Positions 1,921 to 9,740 of a stretch of 33,325 nt of DNA are shown here, piece after piece (position 1 is the first letter of the stretch; each line of letters starts with the position of its first letter). The translations under genes were made by a program, and so were the position numbers. The stretch spans positions 1-33,325 of the forward strand of contig CAMDBL010000020.1 of NCBI GenBank assembly GCA_945889015.1. Direction: 5' to 3'. The notes under the pieces are model-generated. The model did no database searches. It was not told the DNA's origin and saw nothing but the letters and a program-made list of their open reading frames with translations. The DNA is from Devosia equisanguinis (GTDB lineage: Bacteria > Pseudomonadota > Alphaproteobacteria > Rhizobiales > Hyphomicrobiaceae).

Positions 1921-2562
1921 TCACGCAGACAGGATGCCGCGGGCGGCATCCACCGCCCCGACCATCCGGCGCGCGTTGCGGGCGACCTCGCTCGCCCGCA
2001 TGCCCGGCTTATAGAGTGCCGACCCGATGCCGAACCCCGACGCCCCCGCGGCGAGATAGTCCGCCATAGTATCGACGTTGACGCCACCAACCGGAATCAG
2101 GCGGACCGTCGCGGGGAACACCGCGCGCCAAGCCGCCACCACCTTGGGCGGCAGCGCCTCACCCGGAAACAGCTTGAGGGCGCTCGCCCCTGCCGCCAGT
2201 GCCGCGAAACCCTCGGTCGGCGTGGCGACGCCAGGTATGCAGGCGAGGCCGGCGCGGCGGGCAGCCGCGATAACGTCCGGATCGGAATGTGGCATCACGA
2301 TCAGCTTGCCGCCGACACCGGCCACCGCCGCGACGTCGTCCGGCGACATCACGGTGCCTGCGCCGATCAGGCAGCGGTCGCCGAACCGTTGCGCCAGGCG
2401 GCCGATGGAGCGCATCGGCTCGGGCGAGTTCAGCGGCACCTCTATGATCGCGATGCCGGCGTCGGCGAGCGCCGCGCCGATCTCGAAGACCTCGTCCGGC
2501 GTGACGCCGCGCAGAATGGCGATGACCGGGGAGCGGGCAAGTGCGGTTTCGAGATCGATCAC
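1921..2562 (-). CDS. dgoA: 2-dehydro-3-deoxy-6-phosphogalactonate aldolase (KDPG/KDPGal aldolase family)
   Basis: A class I aldolase that splits 2-keto-3-deoxy-6-phosphogalactonate into pyruvate and glyceraldehyde 3-phosphate. It is 213 residues, normal for the family. Visible landmarks are AILRG near residue 15, the catalytic Glu41 in IEVPLNSPEP, the GAGTV strand at 67-71, the Schiff-base Lys130 in ALKLFPGE, and the phosphate-binding PVGGV and GFGIGSALY segments. The start is GTG with an AGGAAG ribosome site about eight bases upstream. It follows the kinase dgoK by 67 nt on the same strand; the kinase makes its substrate, which favours the galactonate over the gluconate version. No galactonate dehydratase (dgoD) is present in the window. 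Confidence 0.9.
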   Translation of the reverse strand: MIDLETALARSPVIAILRGVTPDEVFEIGAALADAGIAIIEVPLNSPEPMRSIGRLAQRFGDRCLIGAGTVMSPDDVAAVAGVGGKLIVMPHSDPDVIAAARRAGLACIPGVATPTEGFAALAAGASALKLFPGEALPPKVVAAWRAVFPATVRLIPVGGVNVDTMADYLAAGASGFGIGSALYKPGMRASEVARNARRMVGAVDAARGILSA

Positions 2563-8135: not shown

Positions 8136-8663
8136 ATGACCTCGCCCGCCATCCGCATGACCGCCGGCACCGAGGCCTACCGGATCGGCGCGGCCATGCT
8201 GTTCGTCGCATTCGCCGTGATCTGCGCCGCGCTCGGTTTCGAGGTCATCGGCGGCTATGTGCCCTGCCCGCTCTGTCTACAGCAGCGCTATGCCTACTAT
8301 GCCGGCGTCCCGCTGCTGTTCCTCGCGCTGGTGCTGCTCAGTGCCGACGAGCGCCAATGGGCGGCTTTCATCTTCCTGGCCGTTTCGCTGTTCTTCCTCG
8401 CCAATGCCGGCTTCGGCATCTACCAGGCGGGAGCCGAGTGGAAATTGTGGGCCGGGCCTACGACATGCGCCACGGCACAGCCGATCGCCACGTCGGCAGG
8501 AGACCTTTTCAAGAACCTCGGGGAAACGAGCGTCATCCGCTGTGACGAGGCGGCGTGGCGATTCCTCGGCCTCTCGTTTGCCGGCTGGAACGTGCTGGTT
8601 TCGCTGCTGATCTTCGGCGGCTGCCTCAAGGCGGCGCACCTGACCGCTCCGAAAAATCACTGA
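8136..8663 (+). CDS. dsbB: Disulfide bond formation protein B
   Basis: DsbB re-oxidises the periplasmic thiol oxidase DsbA and passes electrons to quinone. The protein has 175 residues and four membrane segments (about 16-38, 53-70, 75-96 and 145-166). The first periplasmic loop carries the redox pair Cys44/Cys47 in VPCPLCLQQR, and the second loop carries Cys111 and Cys136, so both functional cysteine pairs are intact. The start at 8136 has a poor ribosome site; an in-frame ATG at 8157 is an alternative. It follows the DedA-family gene by 22 nt. No dsbA is in the window. No good terminator is visible after it, only a T-run at about 8692-8697 without a stem. Confidence 0.93.
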   Translation: MTSPAIRMTAGTEAYRIGAAMLFVAFAVICAALGFEVIGGYVPCPLCLQQRYAYYAGVPLLFLALVLLSADERQWAAFIFLAVSLFFLANAGFGIYQAGAEWKLWAGPTTCATAQPIATSAGDLFKNLGETSVIRCDEAAWRFLGLSFAGWNVLVSLLIFGGCLKAAHLTAPKNH

Positions 8664-8777: not shown

Positions 8778-8828
8778 CCTCTGTCGCAAAGTTGCCACGC
8801 CCGGGGGGTTAATTCTCCCTTGTTCGCG

Positions 8829-8843
8829 GAACACACAGTGAAC
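8829..8843. promoter_or_regulatory. Candidate LexA (SOS) box, GAAC-N7-GAAC
   Basis: GAAC at 8829-8832, seven bases, then GAAC at 8840-8843. This exactly matches the direct-repeat LexA site of alphaproteobacteria (GTTC-N7-GTTC on the other strand). It is followed by an A-rich patch and sits at the left edge of the unexplained island. One such match is expected by chance in a window of this size counting both strands, so the call depends on context. Confidence 0.4.
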
Positions 8844-8873
8844 CGGTAAACAAAAAGTAAAGGGGCGCCGGTT
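8841..8873. repeat. Short inverted repeat AACCGG...CCGGTT
   Basis: AACCGG at 8841-8846 pairs with CCGGTT at 8868-8873 across a 21-base, A-rich loop. It overlaps the second half of the GAAC-N7-GAAC site and marks the left edge of the island. Confidence 0.35.
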
Positions 8874-9150
8874 GACCAAGTTGCACAGTCTCCCGACATC
8901 CGAGTCGAGGTCGCAGCAGAGCCGGACCACCGGTGTTGTGCGTTCTGAAGCGACCAGGGCCACGGGCAAGGCAACCGGCACAAGCGCCGCGGCGTTCATC
9001 GCGGAAAGCACCCAAGTCCAGGTAGCAAGCGTCCAGGTTAGCCACGGTTTCAGTAAGCGTAGCGTCGGTAGCGTCAGCGTCCCGAGTTCAGTTGCGTCGC
9101 GTTCAGTCGAGTTGCGTTCGGTAGCGTCCGCGTATGGTTCGTCCCCCCCG

Positions 9151-9172
9151 AAGCGTGCTGGCCCGCACGCTT
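9151..9172. repeat. Perfect hairpin inside the GCGT island
   Basis: AAGCGTGC (9151-9158) pairs perfectly with GCACGCTT (9165-9172) across a 6-base TGGCCC loop. Its right arm supplies the only ACGC seen in the island. No T-tract follows. Confidence 0.6.
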
Positions 9173-9176
9173 CACA

Positions 9177-9242
9177 CCTTGAAGCGAGCCGCTCGTGCCT
9201 CTGTGTTCCAGCGTATCGCCGGGCGGCTCGCAGCCTTGAAGC
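9177..9242. repeat. Direct repeats CCTTGAAGC flanking an inverted repeat
   Basis: CCTTGAAGC occurs at 9177-9185 and 9234-9242. Between and overlapping them, GCGAGCCGC (9184-9192) is the exact inverse of GCGGCTCGC (9223-9231). This segment is less GCGT-rich than its surroundings and looks like a separate structured core. Confidence 0.5.
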
Positions 9243-9528
9243 CCAGTGAGTTGCGTTCCAGTCGTGTTGGTTGCGTATCGAAGTTCCAGTCGCGTCGGTT
9301 CCAGTTGCGTTCGCGTAGTGCCTCGCAGACGTCCCGTTCGGTCGAGTCGAGTGGCGTCGAGTTCGTGTCCGGCCATCGTGTCCTGCAGTGAGGCGTGCCG
9401 TGAGCATCCAGGTCGACAAGAGTGAGTGGCGTTCGTTGCGTGATGTGGTCCGCCTTGTCGTGCGTCCTGAGTTGTGCGGCGTCGTTGTGAGTGGCGTCAG
9501 TACGAGTGGCGTTGGTGTCAGTGGCGCC

Positions 9529-9547
9529 GGTGGCGGTGGCGGTGGCG
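9529..9547 (+). repeat. GGTGGC tandem triplet (possible two-tetrad G-quadruplex)
   Basis: Three GGTGGC units run head to tail, giving six GG pairs separated by single bases on the plus strand. Such a run can form a two-layer quadruplex and would favour RNA-DNA hybrids if transcribed rightward. Confidence 0.4.
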
Positions 9548-9740
9548 TAGGTTCGAGTTGTGCCGCGTCCAAGTCGCACACTGCCGAGTTGCGTCATCAA
9601 GAGTTGCGTAACCCGCCTGTCGCGTATCCGCGTGTCGCGTAGCTCTAGTCGCGTTCCCACGAGTTGCGTCCTCGTCGCGTCAGTCGCGTCGTCAGTAGCG
9701 TTCCGTTTGCGTTCGGTAGCGTCCATCAGCGTAGCGCGGC

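Follow-up and report, generated by a model that had tools for sequence, protein, structure and literature searches.

Genes and features of the locus

The window, a 33,325-nucleotide stretch of DNA from Devosia equisanguinis, carries on its forward strand a GCGT-rich island between dsbB and the gene for a small conserved protein, here termed sp (Table 1). This position of the array is common to the Hyphomicrobiaceae and several other families of the Rhizobiales, and the closest relatives of the dsbB gene among named genomes are those of Hyphomicrobium, Filomicrobium, and other Hyphomicrobiaceae. Two small ORFs overlap the array, and a structured RNA domain of ~100 nt, R1, is located at its 3' end, ~60 nt 5' of sp in the window. 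Neither a sigma-70 promoter consensus nor an intrinsic terminator consensus was found in the window, and no tRNA or tmRNA was detected by ARAGORN.

Table 1. Features of the dsbB–sp interval, in window coordinates
Feature	Position	Strand	Evidence
dsbB, upstream neighbour and conserved anchor	8136..8663	+	Pfam DsbB, E 2.7e-27; position kept in 22 genomes
Conserved promoter-like or transcript-start block (predicted function), GTTGCC..GGTTAATTCTCCCTTGTTCGCGGAACAC	8780..8846	+	Conserved columns in a 22-locus alignment
ORF1, small Arg/Ser/Val-rich protein, C-terminal segment PRSVLARTLHTLKRAARASVFQRIAGRL	8872..9391	+	Homologues in ~20 loci
GUNGCGU array	9051..9740	+	39 GCGT, 1 ACGC; 248:1 over 29 loci
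Central hairpins (9150–9173 and a long stem at ~9184–9232), GCGU near the stem apex	9150..9232	+	Relatives, inverted repeats
ORF2, small protein, start (S/D)WRxLxxVVxxVL, Shine-Dalgarno-like GTGAGG	9400..9642	+	Homologues in ~21 loci
R1, 3' structured RNA domain, GCGU invariant in the apical loop	9836..9934	+	30-sequence alignment; 81.8 bits on +
sp, 76-aa conserved protein, three predicted helices	9996..10226	+	Homologues in relatives

Strand bias of the GCGT motif in the island

The exact counts of GCGT and ACGC in the island coincide with those obtained by hand in the original prediction, and the contexts named there are likewise confined to one strand: in 9051–9740, GTNGCGT occurs 26 times and AGTNGCGT 15 times on the plus strand, and neither occurs on the other strand. 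The expectation of about five GCGT copies given in that prediction was too low, as a first-order Markov model of the island yields 17.5 ± 3.6. The maximum in 2000 simulations of this model was 31, compared to 39 copies observed, indicating that the excess is real and smaller than an expectation of five had implied. The base composition was also described too strongly for the island as a whole, in which A accounts for 11.9% and G+T for 60%, the figure near 70% having been given for parts of it. The spacing of the GCGT copies is irregular (5–58) and the copies fall in all three frames, as had been described.

Pattern searches of the source genome (4.8 Mb in 360 contigs) bore out the distinctness of the island: a triple cluster of GTNGCGT with short gaps matches 16 times genome-wide, and 15 of these matches lie inside the island. 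DNA similarity searches gave no second copy of the island in the source genome and only short matching pieces in relatives.

Growth by slippage, one of the origins suggested at the outset, was rejected for the GCGT array on account of the irregular spacing and the lack of a tandem family. A fast slippage locus of a different sequence is present in Hyphomicrobium, where a TTGAG pentamer tandem array lies inside the GCGT array at position 279 of the post-dsbB interval. It comprises 25 copies in one genome (L072) and 7 in another (L071), the two being otherwise 97% identical there.

Conservation of the motif and its strand in relatives

In 22 loci where dsbB is followed by an sp homologue, the 1.5 kb 3' of dsbB contains 19–46 GCGT and 2–13 ACGC, whereas a comparable GCGT strand bias was absent from dsbB loci without a nearby sp. 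GCGT is the most strand-asymmetric of all 4-mers over 31 loci (842 vs. 110). When near-duplicate loci were removed and the TTGAG pentamer repeat was collapsed, GTNGCGT was found 248 times in the sense direction and once in the antisense direction in 29 loci, and GTNGAGT 37 times and twice, respectively. Substituted versions of the motif are mostly rarer and far less biased, as shown by GTNGGGT (9:1), GTNACGT (9:7), and GTNGCGG (20:14). The N position accepts all four bases (GTTGCGT, 136; GTCGCGT, 41; GTGGCGT, 45; GTAGCGT, 44), and GTTGAGT is entirely one-stranded, with counts of 21:0 after collapsing the TTGAG array of Hyphomicrobium and 57:0 before.

In pairs of close loci, the retention of GCGT sites also exceeds that of control 4-mers (stratified z = 3.4, p = 4e-4). 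Most other positions in the array vary freely, indicating that it is the motif, and not the sequence, that is kept.

Motif excess over the coding content of ORF1 and ORF2

ORF1 is read in one frame from 8872 to 9143, where a run of seven C (9143–9149) shifts it into the frame that ends at 9391. This run could be an assembly error, a sign of decay, or a site of programmed frameshifting. Runs of five and six C also occur near this site in two relatives (L060 and L071, respectively), and the frame changes at the run in L060. Homologues of ORF1 were identified by HMM always on the plus strand, and their conserved C-terminal segment reads SPRxxLxxxFxxLRRxAR; the Pfam search with ORF1 gave no match. 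For ORF2, a mechanical listing of ORFs places the beginning at 9388.

Mismatches between homologues of ORF1 fall at codon position 3 in 23 of 46, 26 of 55, and 40 of 90 cases (p ~0.02 per pair), and those of ORF2 in 12 of 18 and 11 of 18, with a third pair at 6 of 16. This concentration at position 3 makes translation of ORF1 and ORF2 probable, with ORF1 being weakly constrained. Taken together with the homologues, the coding signal is weak to moderate for ORF1 and ORF2 and strong for sp, in which 25 of 40 mismatches are at position 3. The description of the island as a GT-rich non-coding transcript is therefore half right, since the array coincides in part with two small ORFs that have some coding signal, and a purely non-coding reading was dropped.

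The encoded proteins and their usual codons do not, in turn, explain the composition. GTNGCGT occurs 6, 5, and 8 times within the ORFs of the window, compared to 0.9, 0.3, and 0.7 expected from synonymous shuffling with local codon usage (19 in total vs. ~2), and the observed numbers were never reached in 2000 shuffles. Codon use in the array ORFs is altered accordingly, with CGT at 52% of Arg codons compared to 10%, TTG at 56% of Leu codons compared to 6%, and AGT at 24% compared to 2%. Across the ORF1 loci, GCGT is distributed over the three frames as 103/87/68. No GTNGCGT excess of this kind was observed for sp or dsbB. These results indicate that selection for the motif operates at the nucleic-acid level, most probably on the transcript. 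An alignment of conserved proteins running through the region had been named at the outset as grounds for abandoning the prediction. This is borne out in part, as homologues of ORF1 and ORF2 do exist, but the frames and the synonymous shuffles show selection for the motif in addition to the coding constraint.

Structured RNA domains containing GCGU

R1 has an apical loop with the consensus GGUYnnGCGU. In an alignment of 30 loci, 96.2% of paired cells are standard pairs, and both sides have changed in 20 of the 23 pairs (RNAalifold was also run). The cells with both-side changes number 142, compared to 46 in shuffled alignments, and none of 500 shuffles reached 142; the compensatory changes on the transcribed strand thus exceed chance. 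A covariance model of R1 matched in 19 of 297 genomes of the order, each match lying just upstream of an sp match, and further weak matches were obtained in one additional family. Outside the order, a single truncated match (E 0.004) was taken as chance.

Of the central hairpins, the long one was present in 14 of 14 loci (mean z -4.3), and the first one (9150–9173) exhibits partial covariation, with both-side changes in five of its six pairs. GCGU is located near the apex of both R1 and the long hairpin. For the GCGU sites in general, the unpaired probability in predicted ensembles was 0.246, compared to 0.229 for control 4-mers (21 of 31 loci), showing no clear difference in accessibility from the controls. 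The covariance models of Rfam 15 gave no family at the gathering score and nothing relevant up to E 5.

Linkage of sp to the array

No family or fold match for sp was found in Pfam or NCBIfam, and no credible match in the PDB. The linkage between sp and the array is observed even where the layout differs. At a locus of another family (L150), the ~210 nt that immediately follow the sp match contain nine GTNG(C/A)GT sites on its strand, whereas just two lie upstream. R1 was searched for at this locus and not found; the array there contains a hairpin with a GCGU loop (AGCGUAUUUC), and this array downstream of sp accounts for all four triple clusters in the genome. The array and sp thus stay together despite the changed layout. 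Conversely, dsbB and sp adjoin with ~250 nt between them, and without the array or R1, in one family (f11; L156–L161), indicating that sp does not need the array. From this arrangement, the dsbB–sp pair may predate the RNA.

A proposed transcript as a multivalent platform for an RNA-binding protein

The bias concerns one strand and one motif, extends over all reading frames, accompanies covarying structures that bear the same motif, and follows one direction of transcription, which together suggest that the selected molecule is the transcript. In the reading we prefer, to which we assign a probability of roughly one in two, the array would be part of a dual-function transcript that serves as a multivalent platform for one putative RNA-binding protein; the result would be titration or autoregulation. 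A single sense-strand transcript would start after dsbB and span ORF1, ORF2, R1, and probably sp, and it would present dozens of GUNGCGU sites, less often GUNGAGU, together with two hairpins that have GCGU near the apex. A putative single sequence-specific RNA-binding protein would occupy these sites, and multiple binding would either titrate the protein, in the manner of CsrB and CsrA, or control both the translation and the stability of the transcript itself. The binding partner may be encoded at the locus, as sp or the Arg-rich product of ORF1. We infer that the single transcript is made, that the protein binds to it, and that titration or autoregulation follows. Among the possibilities listed in the original prediction, an array for a single-strand or RNA-binding protein is the one that the results favour, because the sense-strand motif is kept in dozens of relatives, in syntenic positions and beside covarying RNA domains.

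Four other explanations were weighed against this one. If GUNGCGU were the cleavage site of a MazF-like endoribonuclease, an mRNA rich in such sites would be destroyed first under stress. Precedents for motif-enriched mRNAs exist: the sraP mRNA of S. aureus is rich in MazF UACAU sites, for which early destruction under stress was proposed (Zhu 2009, in the account given by PMC5408214), UGG sites are enriched in hao/amo (PMC6186784), and MazF-mx cleaves GU^UGC. That the array overlies coding sequence in all frames would also fit. We nevertheless regard this explanation as unlikely, as the array covers non-coding parts too and, in L150, follows sp, any base is tolerated at N, unlike in GUUGC, and a mere cleavage substrate would not be expected to have a covarying domain whose structured loop holds an invariant GCGU. 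The coding sequence itself offers another explanation, in which ORF1 and ORF2 are ordinary small protein genes and the bias is a by-product of V-A-S, L-R-S, and S-V repeats. The homologues and codon-position signals of both ORFs agree with it, but GCGT occurs in three frames and above the synonymous expectation, codon choice flips to CGT, TTG, and AGT in the array ORFs, and ORF1 is broken by the 7-C run in the window and went unrecognised at several loci where the array is retained; such an origin is quite improbable.

The array could instead act as a sponge by base pairing with a small RNA that carries ACGCNAC, as the sites are short, repeated, and one-stranded, and apparent leaders elsewhere contain further short arrays. 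The occurrence of four bases at N and the alternation of C and A fit recognition by a protein better than pairing, and an unsystematic look revealed no ACGCNAC-rich RNA, so that a pairing sponge appears still less probable. An element acting at the DNA level, by binding of single-stranded DNA, as a replication or segregation mark, or as an orientation signal, would be consistent with the single main locus per genome and with a distance of ~103–113 kb from parB in two genomes. This distance is ~480 kb in a third genome, and a marker of replication position was rejected because the distance is not constant; the orientation marker suggested at first does not agree with one main locus per genome. 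In addition, RNA structure with compensatory changes is found on the same strand, and the orientation of the array follows the transcription of sp even where the array is 3' of it, making a DNA-level role very improbable. The simplest function of the array would be the multivalent binding of a putative sequence-specific RNA-binding protein, leading to titration or autoregulation.

Comparison with known RNA systems

The array resembles CsrB/CsrC and RsmY/RsmZ in having many short, strand-specific motif copies per RNA, with the number kept across species while the rest drifts, and in presenting some copies on structured hairpins. It differs from them in that the enriched motif is GUNG(C/A)GU and not the GGA of CsrA/RsmA, repeated GGA in hairpin loops not being found, and in that ~40 sites extend over ~1 kb, overlap ORFs, and have no Rfam match. 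The flaA mRNA of Campylobacter jejuni is a dual-function RNA, repressed by CsrA and titrating CsrA (PMC4894983). The likeness to flaA is that of a coding mRNA able to titrate an RNA-binding protein, titration being proposed here, whereas the motif is a different one and is laid over coding sequence in all frames. As the motif and the RNA are unrelated and the logic alone is similar, the array was not filed under the CsrB or flaA families. With sraP, as far as the account cited above extends, it shares the unusual enrichment of a single mRNA in one short ribonucleotide motif, but it reaches beyond the coding sequence and has a covarying RNA domain at its end.

Large structured bacterial RNAs such as OLE, GOLLD, and ROOL are long and conserved and lack homology to other families. 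The transcript proposed here shares these properties, whereas only ~100–200 nt of it are structured and conserved and the rest is a motif array. To our knowledge, sequence-specific bacterial RNA-binding regulators outside Csr/Rsm and Hfq/ProQ are few, and the search for them in alphaproteobacteria is open. With its dozens of motif copies, the conserved array RNA would hand over the ligand-binding site directly and would thus be a ready-made bait for the putative binding protein. It would, moreover, clearly exemplify an RNA motif superimposed on all frames of a coding sequence.

Motif arrays elsewhere in relatives

Targets would be expected for a sponge of the CsrB kind, and short arrays of the motif occur in relatives in apparent leaders or short transcription units. 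Upstream of genes in 1.6 Mb of one genome that has the RNA (G007), TTGCGT exhibits a sense bias of 90 vs. 48 and ranks fourth of 4022 6-mers, only Shine-Dalgarno-like words ranking above it. This was not replicated in 0.8 Mb of a second genome (G207; 34 vs. 30), and the control loci gave 10 vs. 9; genes in this test were called with a simple purpose-made gene caller. The leader arrays and the enrichment, with one of the two genomes positive, weakly suggest targets elsewhere. A more far-reaching proposal, that the Rhizobiales possess a previously undescribed post-transcriptional system in which a putative GUNGCGU-specific protein is titrated or auto-controlled by a dual-function transcript with ~40 sites spread over all three frames of its coding sequence, and has as targets some mRNA leaders with short arrays of the motif (those of the porin-like gene and the CcrM methyltransferase), is tentative and somewhat doubtful.

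Individual instances are as follows. In G007, a GTNGCGT array together with GAGTTGAGT lies directly 5' of the start codon of an ORF (L211, ~2069–2160) that we take to be porin-like from reading its N-terminus rather than from a family search. A short GTNGCGT array (L361, ~1500–1600 of the reverse-complemented locus; G038:C81:7926-7977, minus strand) lies just before the Shine-Dalgarno sequence in the leader of an ORF (P0003) that is presumably a CcrM-type DNA methyltransferase, again as read from the N-terminus and not from a family search. A GCGT cluster (L362, 1501–1550; G053:C1:4060172-4060221, plus strand) spans the apparent start codon of a gene that follows a pyruvate phosphate dikinase-like ORF; the searches for sp and R1 found neither in this genome (G053). 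At a further locus (L215, ~1999–2052, reverse strand), four GTNGCGT copies are followed by a terminator-like hairpin (GGGCTCACCCTTCGGTGAGCTC..TTTTTT), forming an sRNA-like unit.
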